A stretch of 64,000 bases of DNA, from the NCBI RefSeq assembly GCF_014203715.1, contig NZ_JACHJP010000013.1, positions 62,001 to 126,000 of the forward strand, given 5' to 3'. Under the pieces are notes generated by a model. The model did not search any database. It saw only the letters and a list, made by a program, of their open reading frames with translations, and was not told where the DNA came from. The DNA comes from Streptosporangium saharense (GTDB taxonomy: Bacteria > Actinomycetota > Actinomycetes > Streptosporangiales > Streptosporangiaceae). The position numbers and the translations under genes are program-made. Of this stretch, positions 4,089 through 31,542 are shown piece by piece (position 1 is the stretch's first letter; each line of letters starts with the position of its first letter).

Positions 4089-5225
4089 ATGCAGGTGATC
4101 GACTGGGACCTTGCCGTCGCGACCGGAACGCGCCTGGTGCGCCCCGGGCCGCAAGTGAGCCGAGAGGAGGCTCGCAGGGCGGTCGCCGACCTGCGGCAAC
4201 TCTCCCGAGTGGCCGAGGGACACGTTCGCGAGTTCACCCGGATCGACACCGAGACCGCGCCCGTGGCCGCGACCGTCGTCGACCGGCCCGGCTGGATCAA
4301 GGCCAACGTCGAGGGCTTCCGGGTGGTGCTCGAACCGCTGACCCAGCGGATGGCCGCCCGTAAGGAACAGACGCCCGCGATCGTGACCGCGGTCGGCTCC
4401 CGCATCACCGGGGTCGAGGTGGGCGCCGTGCTGGCCTTCCTCGCCTCGCGTGTCCTGGGGCAGTACGAGCTGTTCCTGCCCCCCGACCCCTCGGGCAGGC
4501 AGCCGGCGGGCAGGCTGACGCTGGTCGCGCCCAACATCGTCCACGCCGAGCAGGAGCTCGACGTCAACCCGCGTGACTTCCGCCTGTGGGTCTGCCTGCA
4601 CGAGGAGACCCACCGGGTGCAGTTCACCGGCGTGCCCTGGCTCAGGGAGTACGTCCGCTCCCAGATGACGGAGTTCCTGCTCGCCTCCGACATGGACCTG
4701 AGCACGCTCCTCGACCGGCTCCGCTCCGCGGCCGACGCGGTCGCCGACGCCGTCAGGGGCGGCGAGGGCAACCTGATCGACGCGATCCAGACGCCCGAGC
4801 AGAAGGAGATCCTCGACCGGCTCACCGCGGTGATGACCCTGGTCGAGGGGCACGGCGACTACGTGATGGACGCGGTCGGCCCCTCGGTCGTCCCGACCGT
4901 CGCCGACATCCGCGCCAAGTTCCAGCACCGCCGCGAGGGCGGCTCCCGACTCGACCGCACCGTCCGCAAGCTGCTCGGCGTCGACCTCAAGATGAAGCAG
5001 TACGCCGAGGGCTCGACCTTCGTCCGCACGGTCGTCGAGCAGGTCGGCATGGACGACTTCAACAAGGTCTGGACCTCCCCGGAGACGCTCCCGACCCAGG
5101 ACGAGATCAGCGACCCCGCGCGCTGGATCGCCAGGGTTGTCGGCTCCAAGGCCCTGCCCGGCGCCAACAGCACCGCTCCCGCCCCCGAGAAGCCCGAGGA
5201 GCCCGAGGAGGGCCCCGCGGCCTGA
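4089..5225 (+). CDS. Zinc-dependent metalloprotease, DUF2342 / F420-biosynthesis-associated family
   Basis: A predicted 378-aa cytoplasmic protein of the actinobacterial DUF2342 family, annotated as coenzyme F420 biosynthesis-associated because of phylogenetic co-occurrence; its substrate is not known. The zinc-site motif HEETH is at residues 171-175 (gluzincin-like HExxH), with a downstream Glu in the family fold. The frame is also open from a TTG at 4038, immediately after the dacB stop. ATG 4089 gives the usual N-terminus (MQVIDWDLAVATG…) and has GGTGGACGG upstream, so I prefer it. The last 20 residues are a Pro/Glu tail. It probably shares a transcript with dacB and tilS. Confidence 0.85.
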   Translation: MQVIDWDLAVATGTRLVRPGPQVSREEARRAVADLRQLSRVAEGHVREFTRIDTETAPVAATVVDRPGWIKANVEGFRVVLEPLTQRMAARKEQTPAIVTAVGSRITGVEVGAVLAFLASRVLGQYELFLPPDPSGRQPAGRLTLVAPNIVHAEQELDVNPRDFRLWVCLHEETHRVQFTGVPWLREYVRSQMTEFLLASDMDLSTLLDRLRSAADAVADAVRGGEGNLIDAIQTPEQKEILDRLTAVMTLVEGHGDYVMDAVGPSVVPTVADIRAKFQHRREGGSRLDRTVRKLLGVDLKMKQYAEGSTFVRTVVEQVGMDDFNKVWTSPETLPTQDEISDPARWIARVVGSKALPGANSTAPAPEKPEEPEEGPAA

Positions 5226-5276
5226 CGTGGTTGTTGAGGGGTCGCTTAGGGCCCCCGAGGCCCGCGATGGCGGACA

Positions 5277-9777: not shown

Positions 9778-10905
9778 TCAGCGCGGCAGGAGGTTGGTGG
9801 GGGCGTCCAGCCAGGGGCGGTGGTGGCCCTCGGGGGTGATGGTCAGGCCGAAGCGCTCTCGTCTGGGGTGGCCCCGCTCGATCCACCACCCATGGGCGGT
9901 CTCGACCTCGTTCCACAGGTCGCGTGGGCCACCCTGGTAGACCTGGGAGGCGCCGTGGGTGGTGTCGCCGTAGAAGAACACCGCCGCCCAGGAGCGGTCG
10001 GCCAGGCCGTACAGCCACACGGCGGGGGTGCCCTGCGCGTCGTGGCCGTAGCTGTGGACGCAGTCGGGGACCAGCAGGCCGGTCACGAACGGGGCCGTGG
10101 CGAAGGGCTCCTCGGGGAAGGCCGAGGACGCCCTGACCCTCGTCTCCGACCTGCGGGTGTCGGCGGGCCAGCTGTCTCCCGGGACGTACTCGGAGACCCT
10201 GAGTGCCGTCCGCTGGGAACGCAGCGGCATGAACCCGGCGCCGCCCACGAACGGCCCGCTCGCGCCGCCGTCCTCGGTGACCGTCAGCCGGACGACGGCC
10301 TCCTGGTGGGTGTAGCGGGTGCCCCACGGCATCACGATCACCCCACCGGGCCTGGTCTGCTCGATCCACGCCCGTGGGACGTCCCGCACGCCCGCCGTCA
10401 CGAGGATCCGGTCGTACGGCGCCCGCCCCGGGTGGCCGAGCAGGCCGTCCCCGGTGACGACCTCGGGGTTCCATCCCGCGGCGGCCAGGGACTTGCGCGC
10501 CCTGTCGGCCACGGCCCTGTCGAGCTCGACGGAGACGACGTTCGCCTCGCCGAGCCGGGCCGACAGCAGGGCGGCGCACCAGCCGGTGCCGGTGCCGATC
10601 TCCAGCACCTTCGCGCCGTCGAACACCGACAGCTCCCGGAACATCGTGGACACCACGCTCGGCGCCGAACTGGAACTGGTCCGCTGCCTGCCCGGCGCGG
10701 TCCCGGTGTGGTGGCCGTCGTCCCACTGGGTGGTGATCGGCACGTTCGTGGTGGCCCACCGCAGCCACTCGGCGGGGTCCTCGGCCCGGGAGACGGTGAG
10801 GTCACGGCCGTCGTCGAAGGGCCACATCACCTCGGGCAGGAACAGCTCCCGGGGAGCCGCCTCGAAGGCCGCTGCCCAGCCCTCCGGGAAAGTCGGGTCG
10901 GTCAT
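9778..10905 (-). CDS. PIMT-like O-methyltransferase, RiPP-maturation type
   Basis: This 375-aa protein resembles protein-L-isoaspartate O-methyltransferase in its SAM-binding half (VLEIGTGTGWCAALLSARLG, about residues 97-116) but has a long N-terminal segment and a C-terminal extension of about 150 residues ending QGGPRDLW…RFGLTITPEG. This architecture belongs to the actinobacterial group that modifies small ribosomal peptides (graspetide-, FxLD- and imiditide-associated enzymes). Its start codon overlaps the stop of the 38-aa ORF upstream (ATGA at 10902-10905). Inference: it methylates Asp side chains in that peptide, perhaps driving aspartimide formation. A paralogue with the same extension is at 30394-31542. 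Plain protein repair is the alternative, but repair enzymes lack the extension. Confidence 0.75.
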   Translation of the reverse strand: MTDPTFPEGWAAAFEAAPRELFLPEVMWPFDDGRDLTVSRAEDPAEWLRWATTNVPITTQWDDGHHTGTAPGRQRTSSSSAPSVVSTMFRELSVFDGAKVLEIGTGTGWCAALLSARLGEANVVSVELDRAVADRARKSLAAAGWNPEVVTGDGLLGHPGRAPYDRILVTAGVRDVPRAWIEQTRPGGVIVMPWGTRYTHQEAVVRLTVTEDGGASGPFVGGAGFMPLRSQRTALRVSEYVPGDSWPADTRRSETRVRASSAFPEEPFATAPFVTGLLVPDCVHSYGHDAQGTPAVWLYGLADRSWAAVFFYGDTTHGASQVYQGGPRDLWNEVETAHGWWIERGHPRRERFGLTITPEGHHRPWLDAPTNLLPR

Positions 10906-11018
10906 TTCGGCTTCTCGTGCTTTCCCGGCTCCTGTGGGGCGTCGCTGTCGGGATGCGGATCGGTGGGGATCTCGAAGGGCCTGGTGCGCGGTTCCGACTC
11001 TCCCTCGTGGTCGCCCAT
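10902..11018 (-). CDS. Small acidic peptide, candidate RiPP precursor
   Basis: A 38-codon ORF starts at ATG 11018 with a good ribosome site (GAAGGAG, 4 bases upstream) and ends in TGA overlapping the methyltransferase ATG. The peptide is rich in Asp, Glu, Pro, His and Lys, with a central RPFEIPTDPHPDSDAP stretch and a basic end (KHEKPK); it has no Cys. Size, position and translational coupling fit the precursor in two-gene precursor/PIMT clusters (imiditides, described from Nonomuraea). Asp residues in TDPHPDSD are the natural candidates for modification. The coding claim rests on the ribosome site and coupling, as the ORF is too short for codon statistics. Confidence 0.55.
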   Translation of the reverse strand: MGDHEGESEPRTRPFEIPTDPHPDSDAPQEPGKHEKPK

Positions 11019-11178
11019 GTCACTCCTTCAACCGAGGCGTCTGTTCTTTCGAGCGTAGCTTTCGAATACGTGGCGTGACGGCGACAATCCGGTGGGTCCT
11101 TTTCGCGATGGCTGGGCTGATTGTTGTTCGTCCGGCTTCGCGCTGACCAGAACCGCGCCGGGCGGGCTGATAAATGGT

Positions 11179-13213: not shown

Positions 13214-14330
13214 GGAGCTGTTTGGGGTTCGGATCATGTGGGTGAGGTGAGGAGCTTCAGCCACATGATCGAGCCTCGGAGATGGAGCCCGGCCTCATAG
13301 CTTTCCGGGGCCTTGTCGTAGCGGGTCGCCAGACCGCGCCAGGCCTTGATCTTCTGGAAGCAGCGTTCAACGGTGTTGCGCTCCTTGTAGAGGCCGGTGT
13401 CGTGACTGACGGGCCGGCCGCCCCGGCTGCCTTTCCTGCTGCGATTGACAGCCTGGTCCCTCTTCTCGGGGATGACCGCCTTGACGTGGCGTCTCCTCAG
13501 AGAGAAGCGGTTGGCGCGAGAGGAGTACGCCTTGTCCGCGGCCACTGCGGCAGGGCGGGTGCGGGGCCGCCCGACCCGGCCGGGGATGCGGATCTTGTCC
13601 AGGACAGTGATGAACCGGGGACAGTCGGCGGCCTGGCCGGGGGTGAGCACGAAGGCCAACGGCAGCCCGGCGGCATCGACGGCGGCATGGATCTTGCTGC
13701 TCAGTCCGCCTCGGGATCGGCCGAGCCCGGCAACCTTCGCGCGGGCCCTGCGGCGTCGCCGCGTGGTGGCGCGATCCTCACCCGACGTGTCCGTGCCGTC
13801 CGTGCCGTCCGTGTTGGATGTGGCCTGCGGCGCATCACCCGCAGCACCGGCGGCTGCCCCGCCAGCGGAGCCCCCTTTTCCTCGGTCAGCGCCTGTTCCA
13901 GCGCGTCCAGTGTCTCCCCGGCCACCGCCAGCCCGGCCGAGTCCTGATGCGCCCGCACGATGGTGGAGTCCACGCTGACCATCTCCAGCCCGACCTGTCC
14001 GCGTGAGGCGGCCTCGGCGATCAGCGCGTCCATCAACGCCTGGAACACCCCGGCCTTGGCCCAGCCGTTGAACCGGGAATAGACCGTGCCCCAGGGCCCG
14101 TACCGTTCCGGCACATCACGCCAGCCCGATCCGGTGCGGAAACGCCACAGGATCCCGTTGAACTGATCGCGCACGCGCCGCGGCAGCGGCCCGGTGGCCG
14201 CCACCGGCAGATGCGGCTCGATCAACACCCACTCGGCATCCGTCACATCAAAACGCGCCATGCCCGAGTTCTATCAGCAGTGGCTGGCTTGCCATCGGGC
14301 CCCACCTAGATCCGAACCCCAAACAGGCCC
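13214..14330 (-). mobile_element. IS5-family insertion sequence (1117 bp)
   Basis: The ends are inverted repeats: left GGAGCTGTTTGGGGTTCGG (13214 onward) and, on the other strand, right GGGCCTGTTTGGGGTTCGG (inward from 14330), differing at two positions. A TA dinucleotide flanks both ends (13212-13213 and 14331-14332), a plausible target duplication. It contains one transposase gene in two frames joined by a -1 slip. It is inserted between a methyltransferase gene and an ECF sigma gene without breaking either coding region. Confidence 0.85.
13234..14261 (-). CDS. IS5-family DDE transposase, expressed by -1 frameshift
   Basis: The first frame (14261 to 13701) gives the N-terminal MARFDVTDAEWVLIEPHLP region and the first catalytic Asp (SVDST). 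The second frame (to 13234) gives GGLSSKIHAAVDAAGLPLAFVLTPGQ, the second Asp region (ADKAYSS) and the Glu in KERNTVERCF. The zero-frame heptamer A-AAG-GGG lies at 13872-13878 on the minus strand, where the two open frames overlap, and a -1 slip there fuses them into about 342 residues. Both halves look intact, so this is probably an active programmed frameshift and not a decayed gene. Confidence 0.82.
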
Positions 14331-19586: not shown

Positions 19587-20636
19587 ATGTCCCTCCAGCT
19601 ACCGCAGGCGTTGGCGGCCCCGCTCTCCTGGACCGGGGTGGCGGCGTGGCCGTACGAGATGGATGAGGATCTGCTGCGCGCTGAGGGCGCGCGGTACACG
19701 GTGGTGGCCGCGCGGCTGCGGGGTTCGGTGCGGGACACCGACGCGCACGCGAGCCAGGTGTGGCGGCACAACACCGGGGACAGCGTGGACGCCTACCGCT
19801 CGTGGATGGCGGAGAACGCGCCCGGCGACCGGGCGAACCGGCTGGCCGACGCCGCGGAGCTGGTGGGCCTCGCGCTTCTGACGGCGGCCGTGGCCGCGTT
19901 GATGTGGAAGCTGGGGGTGATAGCCCAGCTCGTCGCGCTGGTGGTCGCCGCCGCCCGGACCGTGGCCTCGCCGGGGGCTGTGGTGGCGGCCGTGGCCAGG
20001 ACCCGCCGCGCCCTGCGCGCGCTGCTCGACGACGTCGTCCACTTCCTCGCGCGCGGCGTGGTGGAGCCGATGAAGCGCGCGGTGGCGCTCCTGCGGACCG
20101 GCGCGGGCCGTCTGCGGGGTCGGCCCGCGGACTGGGACCCGCTCAGGGCCGCCGCCAACCGCGACGTGAACGTCTCGGCGATCCGGCCGCGCCCGGGTTT
20201 TCGCGGCTCACCCTTCCGCAACAGCACCCGGCCGGTGTGGCGGCGGGACGGCGAGCCCGTCTACCGGTCGGACACCCGGCATCCCGACGAGATCTTCTCC
20301 GAGGGCTTCCGGCCGAAGAACCCGCACAACACCGACCTGAACGGATACGTCGCCCACCTGGACGAGAAGGCGCGCAACTCGGCCTTCGTCAGCACCAGCT
20401 ACTCCGACAGGATTCATCTCCAGTGGCACGAGTACGGCCGCCAGGGCTGGGTGTACGACATCCGCACCCCCGGTGCCACCGGCCTCCGGCTGCCGAACTC
20501 CAGCTACGACGAGGTCGTCTTCCCCGGGGGGATCTCCCCGGAGTACGTCATGCGGGCCAGGCCGTACCGGGTGGGGCGTAAGGGTGAGGTGACGGTCGGG
20601 GAGTGGTTGGAGAATCCGCACGCGTCGCCTGGCTGA
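19587..20636 (+). CDS. ESX-type polymorphic toxin with pertussis-like ADP-ribosyltransferase domain
   Basis: This 349-aa protein has an N-terminal helical WXG/CpnT-like region (1-90), two hydrophobic stretches (about 92-126) and a C-terminal domain (about 220-335) matching the mono-ADP-ribosyltransferase pattern of pertussis toxin and scabin: Arg227 in VYRSDTR, the STS motif at 269-271 (SAFVSTSYSD) and a candidate catalytic Glu309 in YDEVVFPGGI. The residue two before Glu is Tyr and not the usual Gln/Glu, so the target class is unclear. Inference: a secreted antagonism toxin. No immunity gene is apparent next to it. Its last 89 bases are antisense to the EspC-like gene. Confidence 0.72.
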   Translation: MSLQLPQALAAPLSWTGVAAWPYEMDEDLLRAEGARYTVVAARLRGSVRDTDAHASQVWRHNTGDSVDAYRSWMAENAPGDRANRLADAAELVGLALLTAAVAALMWKLGVIAQLVALVVAAARTVASPGAVVAAVARTRRALRALLDDVVHFLARGVVEPMKRAVALLRTGAGRLRGRPADWDPLRAAANRDVNVSAIRPRPGFRGSPFRNSTRPVWRRDGEPVYRSDTRHPDEIFSEGFRPKNPHNTDLNGYVAHLDEKARNSAFVSTSYSDRIHLQWHEYGRQGWVYDIRTPGATGLRLPNSSYDEVVFPGGISPEYVMRARPYRVGRKGEVTVGEWLENPHASPG

Positions 20637-29004: not shown

Positions 29005-29483
29005 CGCACACGCCTTGGCCATCGTGGTACGCGGGGGCGCGACGATGGCCTAGCCTCACCACCCTGAGGTACGGCCCGCAGCCTGTGGCATGTGTTCATA
29101 CTCATTCGGGCCGGAGTCGCGAACCCCTCTGCGGTCTGGGTCGCGATGGTGTGCAAGATCAGGGCGGTGCCTGCGGTTCCGTCGACTGGCTACCAAACAG
29201 GCGGGGACGGTGATCTTGCCGTTCGGTGGTTCGGCAGCGCTTGGCCGGTCTCTTCCCACGGGCATTACCTCCGTTGCGTGACGGGGCCTGTACGCCTTGA
29301 CGATCTCGCGGGGCGTGCTTTTCGGGAGCCACAGGCGGTTTCCCTCATTTCGCAGGCCGTGTCGGGCGGGAAATCTCCGGCTCGGTATGGGGGATGGCAT
29401 TGTTCCCTTCAGGTTGGTCAGCGCGAGGTTATTTTTACTGTGAGTGCTCAATTCTGGTGGTCCAGACGAGGGGGCCGACCCTG
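29005..29483. other. Intergenic region of about 480 bases before the radical SAM gene
   Basis: I find no gene I can support. A minus-strand frame (29400 to 29056) and a plus-strand frame (29092 to 29484) are open but show no recognisable domain. The lower GC around 29400-29460 (GAGGTTATTTTTACTGTGAG) suggests a promoter for the radical SAM gene. If that gene belongs to a RiPP cluster, a precursor could hide here, but I could not identify one. Confidence 0.4.
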
Positions 29484-30380
29484 ATGGAGCTGCAAGGGCG
29501 TGCTGAACACCCCGCCTCGGCACCAGCGGTAACCCGGCTTCAGCTCGAACTGACCGGACGATGCCAGCTCGCATGTCTGCACTGTTACGCCATGTCAGGA
29601 CCGACCGCCAGTCACGGCACCATGAGCGAAACGGCCTGGTTCGGAGTCCTCGACGAAGCCACAACCCTCGGCGTGAGGGCCGTCCAACTCATCGGGGGAG
29701 AACCGACTCTCAGCCCGGCCTTTGAGCCGGTCCTCCGGTACGCGGTCGGTGTGGGCCTGAAGGTCGAGGTCTACACCAACCTCTTCCACGTCAAAGAGCG
29801 GTGGTGGGAACTGTTCGGCCTCGATGGTGTGTCCCTGGCCACGAGCTACTACAGCGAAAGGCCGGAAGAGCACGACGGAATGACCACCCGCACCGGTAGC
29901 CACGCACGAACCACGGCCAATATCCGAAAGGCGCGGGCACGCGGCATCCGACTGCGCGCGGGCATGGTCGAGCTGCCGACCGGAGAGCCCACCGAAGGAA
30001 GAAACAAGCTCGCTCTTCTCGGCGTCACCGACGTCCGCAGTGACAGACTTCGAGCCATTGGCCGTACGGCTCCCAGCTCCAGGAACGCATCCGAACTCTG
30101 TGGCGCCTGCGGAAAAGGGAAGGCGGCGATCAGCCCCACAGGAGACGTTTGGCCCTGTGTCATGGCCCGATGGATGGCGGCGGGAAATGTCCTTGAACAG
30201 CCTCTGCGCAGAATCCTGCGAGGCGCTCGATGGCGGGAACTGGTGAACGGCATCCCGATCCCTATGGGTAAGAGATGCGATCCCGAACTCTGCGATCCGG
30301 TGAGAGGTGACGGTAACGACTGCGACCCCGCGTCCACGCCCGCCTGCGATCCTAAGTTCTGTGACCCCGACACCGAGTGA
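29484..30380 (+). CDS. Radical SAM protein with Cys-Asp-Pro repeat tail
   Basis: The 298-aa protein binds a [4Fe-4S] cluster through Cys27, Cys31 and Cys34 (CQLACLHCY) and has the GGEPTLSP SAM-binding motif, so it should generate the deoxyadenosyl radical. A partial SPASM-like Cys set follows (ELCGACGKG, VWPCVMARW). The last 35 residues contain five Cys-Asp-Pro units (KRCDPELCDP … DCDP … ACDPKFCDPDTE). ATG 29484 has GAGGGGG 9 bases upstream. A PIMT-like methyltransferase gene starts 13 bases after the stop. Inference: a peptide-modifying enzyme of a RiPP-like system; the repeat tail could bind extra metal or be a substrate itself. Confidence 0.82.
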   Translation: MELQGRAEHPASAPAVTRLQLELTGRCQLACLHCYAMSGPTASHGTMSETAWFGVLDEATTLGVRAVQLIGGEPTLSPAFEPVLRYAVGVGLKVEVYTNLFHVKERWWELFGLDGVSLATSYYSERPEEHDGMTTRTGSHARTTANIRKARARGIRLRAGMVELPTGEPTEGRNKLALLGVTDVRSDRLRAIGRTAPSSRNASELCGACGKGKAAISPTGDVWPCVMARWMAAGNVLEQPLRRILRGARWRELVNGIPIPMGKRCDPELCDPVRGDGNDCDPASTPACDPKFCDPDTE

Positions 30381-30393
30381 AGCCGGGCAACGC

Positions 30394-31542
30394 ATGGACT
30401 GGGAATCTCGTGCCCGTGCCCTCGCCGTGACCGCCAGCCCGCGTGGCTCGCGGTGGAGGGCGGCGATGGAGCGGACTCCACGGCATCTGCTCGTCCCGCG
30501 CTGGTGGGGGTGGGGGAGAGACGAGCAGCGGTGGGAGTTGCGAGACGGCCCTGATGCCCCTGAGCGGTGGCTGTCGGAGGCCTACCGCGACCAGACCTTG
30601 GTGACGCAGGCGGGGACGCTCCACGCCGACCACGCGACCAAGGCCGACCGTCCCGCGCAGACCATGCCGACCTCCTCATCCACCGCGCCGAGCCTGGTCG
30701 TTCGCATGCTCCAGCACGCGGACATCTACGACGGTGCCGACGTTCTCGACGTGGGAGTCGGTTCCGGGTACGGCGCGGCCCTGCTGGCGCGTTCCCTCGG
30801 CGACGACCATGTGACGAGTGTCGATGTCGACCCGTACCTGGTGGAGATCGCCGAAAGCCGCCTCGCCGACCTGGGCATGCGTCCAAGGGTTCTCGCCGTC
30901 GACGCCACGGGAGATCTGCCGGGCACCTACGACCGAATCGTCTCCATGGTCTCGGTCCCCACGATTCCGCCGAGCTGGCTGGCGGCTCTACGGCCGGAGG
31001 GCAGGTTCGTCACCACGATCGCCAACACCAGCCTGATCATCACCGCGAACAGGACCAGCGGTGGGCGCTGGGCCGCGATCGGCCGCGTGGAATGGGACCG
31101 GGCGACCTTCATGGCCACCCGGTCGGGGCCGGGATACCCGCCGGACATTCGGGGCCTGTTCGACGCGACAAGGGACCAGGACGGCGAGGAGGTGTCCCAG
31201 GGCAGATATCCGGTTCTTCAGGTGGCCTGGAACTGGGAGTTGCCCTCCATGCTCGAAGTGGTGGCTCCAGGGATCGAGCACAGCTACGAGCGGGGAGAGG
31301 ACGGCTGGCACACCGCTCGGATGGTGCACGAGGACGGCTCGTGGGCCAGGGCGACCGGCCAGGGCGACGCGCCACCTGTCGTGCATCAGGGCGGCCCGCG
31401 CCGACTGTGGTCCATCCTCGACGAGATCCGGCACAGGTGGGTCGTCGAGGGAGACCTCCCCCTGAGAGGAGCGACCGCCTATATCTCCGCCACGGGCCGC
31501 ATACGGCTGGAGCGAGGCGACTGGGTCGGACGGATCGGCTGA
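30394..31542 (+). CDS. PIMT-like O-methyltransferase with C-terminal extension (paralogue of 9778-10905)
   Basis: A 382-aa methyltransferase with SAM motif VLDVGVGSGYGAALLARSLG, upstream segment MPTSSSTAPSLVVRML, and an extension ending QGGPRRLWSILDEIRHRWV and TAYISATGRIRLERG. The layout and several motifs match the enzyme at 9778-10905 (SSSSAPSVVSTMF, QGGPRDLW), so both belong to the RiPP-associated PIMT group. It follows the radical SAM gene by 13 bases from ATG 30394; GTG 30361, overlapping that gene, is an alternative. It likely acts on the same peptide or protein as the radical SAM enzyme. Confidence 0.78.
   Translation: MDWESRARALAVTASPRGSRWRAAMERTPRHLLVPRWWGWGRDEQRWELRDGPDAPERWLSEAYRDQTLVTQAGTLHADHATKADRPAQTMPTSSSTAPSLVVRMLQHADIYDGADVLDVGVGSGYGAALLARSLGDDHVTSVDVDPYLVEIAESRLADLGMRPRVLAVDATGDLPGTYDRIVSMVSVPTIPPSWLAALRPEGRFVTTIANTSLIITANRTSGGRWAAIGRVEWDRATFMATRSGPGYPPDIRGLFDATRDQDGEEVSQGRYPVLQVAWNWELPSMLEVVAPGIEHSYERGEDGWHTARMVHEDGSWARATGQGDAPPVVHQGGPRRLWSILDEIRHRWVVEGDLPLRGATAYISATGRIRLERGDWVGRIG

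Follow-up and report, generated by a model that had tools for sequence, protein, structure and literature searches.

The DNA analyzed here, referred to as the window, is a stretch of 64,000 nt from Streptosporangium saharense. Two overlapping genes on its minus strand are the subject of this work. The first is a 38-codon open reading frame (ORF) whose ATG at 11018 and stop at 10902 were read from the window sequence, and the second encodes a methyltransferase. An earlier note on this DNA had claimed a good ribosome site for the small ORF and an ATGA overlap between the two genes, and its coordinates prove to be right. The ORF is preceded by GAAGGAGTGAC-ATG, in which 4 nt separate AAGGAG from the start codon, and its end overlaps the start of the methyltransferase gene by ATGA (11018-10902 versus 10905-9778, both on the minus strand). 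The translated peptide, MGDHEGESEPRTRPFEIPTDPHPDSDAPQEPGKHEKPK, carries eight Pro, four Asp, and three Gly among its 38 residues and no Cys, as the note had also stated. Further upstream, a TACGCT hexamer resembles a -10 element and sits close to the place where paralogous pairs carry an upstream element that is described below; around this hexamer, the remainder of the element is not kept at the window pair. The features of the pair are the following.

10902-11018, minus strand: candidate imiditide/type I pamtide precursor of 38 aa, with conserved termini MGDHEG and GKHEKP
11023-11028, minus strand: Shine-Dalgarno sequence AAGGAG, 4 nt ahead of the peptide ATG, read directly from the sequence
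11052-11057, minus strand: TACGCT, a possible -10-like hexamer close to the place of the paralogs' upstream element (leave-one-out score -0.3)
9778-10905, minus strand: PIMT-like L-aspartyl O-methyltransferase (PAMT) of 375 aa with a C-terminal RiPP-type domain, assigned from PF01135, TIGR04188, and the predicted fold

The enzyme matches the PCMT family PF01135 at 5.2e-30 over residues 77-230, and a C-terminal extension lies beyond this match. Its best NCBIfam match is TIGR04188, with a score of 308.6 bits that is under the curated cut-off of 380. Residues 341-347 read WIERGHP, an instance of WXXXGXP, which the available text of PMC13001092 gives as the motif of RiPP PAMTs; across 21 aligned enzymes, W341 and P347 are invariant and G345 is nearly so. 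The best of five AlphaFold models, obtained with 21 sequences, has a pLDDT of 86.8, and the others range from 57.8 to 81.6. The predicted fold comprises a PIMT core and an extra C-terminal domain. The strand and helix order of this domain (E251, H270, E282, E294, E306, E321, and H330) agrees with the beta-alpha-beta4-alpha order that has been published for PAMTs and is seen in 1DL5, and two strands follow (E352 and E362). The best PDB match of the predicted enzyme is 1dl5, the T. maritima PIMT with a C-terminal domain, which aligns loosely over 365 columns (TM-score 0.52-0.61, rmsd above 7); the other PIMTs among the PDB matches align with the model over 150-244 columns. The prior description of a PIMT-like enzyme with a RiPP-type C-terminal extension is thus in keeping with PF01135, WIERGHP, and the predicted 1dl5-like domain.

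Copy Number and Conservation of the Pair

A search of the source genome (8.5 Mb on 26 contigs) found nine enzymes of the window clade, with 62-100% identity to the window enzyme. Ahead of each of the nine lies a peptide of one kind, with the pattern MGDHEG...D...GKHEKP. S. violaceochromogenes (G008) has four clade pairs, including one with a disturbed enzyme start (L045), together with a truncated one (L046), and S. carneum (G006) has two pairs. Start and stop overlap by 4 nt in 13 of the 15 pairs in these three species and by 1 nt in L032, while L045 has neither arrangement. Because the genes overlap in this way, their translation may well be coupled. Two extra peptides are found in the source genome. 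One is an orphan, MGKHEGKPVEEKDFVPSLTRQQADPRTRPGKHEKPEQEQEQ, at about 5128-5250 of locus L070 (contig 15, 57127), with no PAMT adjoining and downstream of a gene labeled by eye as TetR-like. The other accompanies a tandem duplicate that has decayed (L071, about 2528-2900; contig 9, 143027), in which the middle of the peptide is partly missing and the enzyme broken.

By peptide search at E ≤ 0.01, no such peptide was found in 13 of the 16 genus genomes, and its function is therefore dispensable. A search with a peptide model found it in at least 13 of 297 family genomes, a lower bound given that 25 candidates were scored per genome. In an enzyme tree of 68 rows, built from matches of 200 bits or more and without the loci that the peptide searches had supplied, the 15 Streptosporangium enzymes form one clade (support 100/99). 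The enzymes of the three genomes interleave inside this clade, and the expansion therefore predates these species or was exchanged between them. Loci L048 and L045 have a nearly identical peptide type (MGEHEG.RHPKP) and enzymes from different subclades, a mismatch that may reflect the swapping of precursor genes among pairs. When 132 ORFs from 17 stretches (16 fetched loci and the window region) were compared all against all, no family except the enzyme occurred in more than three stretches, so the unit appears to consist of just these two genes. The single neighbor family found in three stretches resembles a helix-turn-helix protein by eye. Additionally, neither proteases nor exporters turn up as a recurring family next to the pairs in the 17 stretches, and the product may therefore remain intracellular or use general machinery.

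Alignment of 15 peptides reveals constant ends and a variable middle. The pN/pS ratio is 0.21 at the N-terminus, 0.77 in the middle, and 0.28 at the C-terminus, as calculated from Nei-Gojobori counts summed over pairs that are not independent of one another. N-terminal differences among the 15 peptides at codon positions 1, 2, and 3 amount to 0.11, 0.15, and 0.53. The ratios at the two ends are the pattern of a coding gene, which answers the synonymous/nonsynonymous comparison proposed in the earlier note, and they indicate that purifying selection acts on both ends of the peptide. A broader alignment of 17 peptides, without those of L005, L010, and L012 and the second peptide of L047, has Asp in 16 sequences at the D26 column, six residues ahead of a conserved Gly, and contains no conserved Thr/Ser column. 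In the L032 peptide, the Asp sits two positions closer to the N-terminus and lines up with D24 of the window peptide. The conserved column makes D26 the candidate for the modified Asp of the window peptide, with D24 as the alternative. In a related pair (L005, and also L072), the peptide MAKHEGPPKDMPKPPPPPPPPPGRHEK has no Asp at the conserved place.

The earlier note had further proposed to look for the small ORF ahead of orthologous methyltransferases, and it is indeed conserved there. The rule required a small ORF that lies at the enzyme start and has M.{0,3}[KRDEQST]H at its N-terminus. Such an ORF was found for 14 of 15 enzymes at 59% identity or above, 14 of 20 at 48-58%, 24 of 45 at 40-47%, and 5 of 23 below 40%, with the lower tiers partly biased because some loci were fetched via the peptide itself. 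The same rule was satisfied at 39 of 1575 control places. The sole miss in the top tier is the L045 locus, where the peptide is present and no enzyme start overlaps it. Among the 24, the reading counted for L126 is wrong and another reading is likely right. Matches that fall short of the query's first 25 residues, that of L046 among them, matches less than 350 nt from a locus end, and duplicates were excluded from the count.

Class Assignment and Competing Explanations

Two-gene clusters of a precursor and a PAMT have been named pamtides and number more than 1,500 in the available text of PMC10787088. According to the same text, type I precursors are about 45 aa long, rich in Gly, Pro, and Asp, and contain a conserved Asp, and their ends mostly carry conserved acidic/basic residues; the accessible part of PMC13001092 equates type I pamtides with imiditides. 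By description, the window pair is like NmaA-NmaM of Nonomuraea maritima and SpaA-SpaM of Streptomyces sparsogenes, which consist of a precursor and a PAMT with a C-terminal domain and WXXXGXP. SpaM yields products of +14 and -18 Da on SpaA (PMC10787088, available text). At the window, a small precursor and a PAMT stand with no other class-defining RiPP enzyme, and neither an ATP-grasp protein nor a RiPP maturase other than the PAMT was found among the seven window proteins scanned. The window peptide shares with imiditide precursors, as they appear in the available parts of PMC10787088 and PMC13001092, its short length, its Pro/Asp-rich and Cys-free composition, a conserved Asp, an acidic N-terminus (MGDHEG), and a basic C-terminus (GKHEKP). 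It has only 3 Gly in 38 residues, in contrast to the published mean of 17.3% for type I. Also unlike NmaA-NmaM and SpaA-SpaM, the cassette exists as nine dispersed copies and an orphan in one genome, and the window enzyme is without the ~20 N-terminal residues that most paralogs have.

Type II pamtides, or cysimiditides, such as FcaA-FcaM of Frankia casuarinae, have the same two-gene layout and a related PAMT. Their MGKH-type N-terminus is present in relatives L139, L143, and L144. In addition, residues 19-26 of the L139 peptide, whose related enzyme is in the same tree, read ITVTSDGK, which is the FcaA fragment given in the available text of PMC10787088. Type II precursors possess CxxCxGxG zinc motifs, two around the Asp, whereas the window peptide has no Cys.

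From the observed layout, conservation, enzyme family, predicted fold, and copy number, we consider it very probable that the window pair is a two-gene imiditide/type I pamtide cassette. This class membership is proposed because the pair has the sequence features discussed above and because relatives in the tree carry type II precursors. The pair would add a member to a RiPP class that has already been described. The imiditide-type precursor/PIMT reading put forward in the earlier note likewise holds up, as far as sequence can tell, on layout, conservation, enzyme domain, and WXXXGXP. Against it stands the related L005 peptide, in which Asp is absent from the expected place.

The steps given for the family in the available text of PMC10787088 and PMC13001092 are methylation of Asp, spontaneous formation of an aspartimide, and hydrolysis to isoAsp/Asp, and recognition of the linear precursor is described there as charge-based. 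Family membership and the gene overlap suggest the chemistry, the modified residue, the binding mode, and the coupled translation of the window pair. The 38-aa peptide would serve as the ribosomal precursor, translated just ahead of the enzyme by way of the ATGA overlap. The PAMT would then bind the linear peptide, probably by its charged ends (the acidic/His N-terminus MGDHEG and the basic C-terminus GKHEKPK), and would methylate one Asp side chain, either D26 as the alignment column predicts or D24. The methyl ester would close spontaneously to an aspartimide, with subsequent hydrolysis to isoAsp or Asp. Duplication and dispersal of the cassette would have led to the nine pairs, with ends kept constant and middles diversified, and the orphan precursor may be modified in trans.

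A different account accepts the pair as a pamtide cassette by descent but holds that the window copy is decaying and that the functional copies are elsewhere in the genome. The window enzyme begins ~20 residues later than most of its paralogs, no in-frame alternative start exists to restore them, and its branch is the longest of its clade (0.32). Since this N-terminal stretch and the upstream element, of which only a weak trace is left, are missing and the branch is so long, the window copy may have reduced activity or poor expression. There are precedents for decay in the broken sister on contig 9 and in the truncated L046 of another species. The window copy nevertheless retains an open frame, an intact precursor, and a strong ribosome site. 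From residue 10 on, its enzyme is changed at 2 of 133 residues that are invariant in 14 close paralogs, which is inside the range of 0-5 seen in the paralogs. P0002, the nearest listed homolog (75% identity), is annotated as equally short, though its start is possibly wrong. Taken together, we judge decay of the window copy to be rather unlikely.

There is much less to be said for a small ORF that is a mere leader for translational coupling or regulation, followed by an ordinary protein-repair PIMT. The 4-nt overlap would couple translation, and the core of the enzyme is PCMT, both as a leader would have it. However, amino acids are conserved at both ends of the peptide despite high synonymous change, a free-standing peptide copy exists without an adjoining enzyme, and the pair is scattered over nine places. 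The C-terminal domain, moreover, is not covered by the structure-known PIMTs matched, that of T. maritima excepted. We regard the leader explanation as very improbable.

Group 13 graspetide PAMTs (TIGR04188) belong to the same enzyme family as the window enzyme, and the source genome carries three ATP-grasp maturase-like genes, on contigs 5 (L228), 10 (L229), and 16. These genes score 219-257 bits, under the TIGR04187 cut-off of 350, and they are found on contigs free of pairs or at a distance; even the nearest is ~340 kb away from the closest of the nine pairs. An ATP-grasp partner for the pairs is unlikely, and the earlier statement that the window pair has none agrees with the scan of the seven window proteins. 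That a distant ATP-grasp ligase cross-links the peptide first and the PAMT acts on the ring only, as the best NCBIfam match might suggest, is hardly credible against a TIGR04188 score under its cut-off, the lack of an adjacent ligase, precursors with no conserved Thr/Ser, and an enzyme tree populated by two-gene pamtide relatives.

A Second PAMT Operon and a Shared Upstream Element

The pair read here as an imiditide/type I pamtide cassette lies within ~32 kb flanked by two stretches that we take to be folE and folP, with the plus-strand folE beyond the end of the enzyme. The other neighbor of the pair is a short-chain dehydrogenase, and neither neighbor looks like a RiPP gene. The same 32 kb holds a second PAMT system, and its features are listed here.

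9729-41934, no strand assigned: ~32 kb between folE and folP that contain both PAMT systems
29422-29449, plus strand: 28-nt upstream element ahead of the radical-SAM/PAMT operon, shared with pamtide pairs
29484-30380, plus strand: radical-SAM protein with a tail of Cys-x-Pro repeats bearing DGNDC, a possible fused PAMT substrate (presumed start; the ORF is open from 29394)
30394-31542, plus strand: the other PAMT of the window, 17 nt downstream of the radical-SAM coding sequence

A search of 15 other Streptosporangium genomes placed folE and folP inside one 3.6-kb locus in all 15, as opposed to ~32 kb apart here. The intervening stretch contains the window pair, the radical-SAM/PAMT operon, a two-ORF transposase, DNA polymerase III alpha, and gas-vesicle genes. 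The 32 kb were also considered as a mobile element. The window contains no tRNA, and a comparison of the two ends of the 32 kb (85 nt with 360 nt) showed no exact direct repeat with a length of at least 9 bases. With neither of these, and with DNA polymerase III alpha and gas-vesicle genes inside, a rearrangement is as likely as an insertion. The transposase is of IS4/5 type, with its DUF4096 and DDE parts in two ORFs at 13234-14261 on the minus strand, near the pair. Elsewhere in the window, a protein with a C-terminal Scabin-like domain (PF22596) is encoded at 19587-20636 on the plus strand.

The 28-nt element, CGCGAGGTTACNNTNACCGNGAGNGCTC, lies ~30-65 nt ahead of the start codon. With up to three mismatches, it has six sites in the source genome and one in G008, for 7 in total among the 16 genomes searched; there was no site elsewhere in these genomes, including the 13 that are peptide-free, and a reversed control gave 0 matches. 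Six of the seven stand in front of pamtide peptides, namely those of four of the nine pairs in the source genome, the orphan, and one G008 pair (L152, L153, L154, L156, L157, and L227). The seventh, at 29422, precedes the radical-SAM/PAMT operon, with its TA 54 nt before the ATG at 29484, a spacing of 51-56 in most pairs. The pattern was composed from these very sites, which makes their count true by construction and leaves as informative only its absence elsewhere and its occurrence at the radical-SAM gene, which is non-homologous. The window pair is without the element, and so is L041, the second radical-SAM/PAMT operon of the genome. Direct comparison of the operon upstream sequence with six upstream sequences gave 45, 41, 42, 40, 32, and 40 matches of 66, where random comparisons reached maxima of 31-33. 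The best of these is the contig-9 pair at 45/66, where the top of 20,000 random window places reached 33, and the orphan upstream at 32/66 is not above chance. A genome-wide regulon behind the element was considered and is not supported, since every one of the 7 sites in the 16 genomes belongs to a PAMT system. A second, shorter pattern matched pairs only at up to two mismatches, and its 16 matches at three mismatches do not greatly exceed the 9 of the control. A position weight matrix was set aside for counting because it was unspecific, with many high scores in the AT-rich loci L083 and L082 and one GC-rich off-site place in L093 that scored 19.6 versus 20.0 for the radical-SAM site.

The second PAMT of the window sits in an operon like the 249 radical-SAM/PAMT two-gene clusters of Kim and colleagues, for which the available text of PMC10787088 reports that no precursor was found. 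The operon differs from the pamtide pairs in having no separate peptide gene, and the upstream element is common to both. Among 31 loci examined from the 42 matches listed, D[GS]xDC is present in the radical-SAM tail at 14 of the 18 whose PAMT is close. It is absent from all 5 whose PAMT is distant or weak and from all 8 that have none. The exceptions with a close PAMT are L163, L165, L169, and L187, the last with a frame that seems broken. Because D[GS]xDC tracks a close PAMT in this manner, we propose a fused substrate, and the sequences suggest that the radical-SAM tail plays this role in clusters reported without one. Kinship could explain part of the correlation, as the PAMT-free loci may be one clade. 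The available portions of PMC11285071 and PMC8939145 contain no such fused-tail proposal. A larger joint proposal is that the Cys-x-Pro tail with D[GS]xDC is a fused precursor aspartimidylated by the PAMT and that the operon, several of the nine cassettes, and the orphan are co-regulated by one cassette-borne promoter element. We offer this combination tentatively, as a possibility that is more doubtful than probable.

Implications for PAMT Substrates

If the joint proposal is true, the PAMT substrates in these actinobacteria would include more than free peptides. The DGNDC tail of the neighboring operon is a directly testable candidate substrate for the clusters that lack one. The role of peptides with aspartimide or isoAsp is described as unknown in the available text of PMC10787088 and PMC13001092. 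The nine diversified pairs, the orphan, and the shared element of S. saharense form a natural library in which to study the function of the conserved ends, the choice of Asp, and whether several precursors can share an enzyme.
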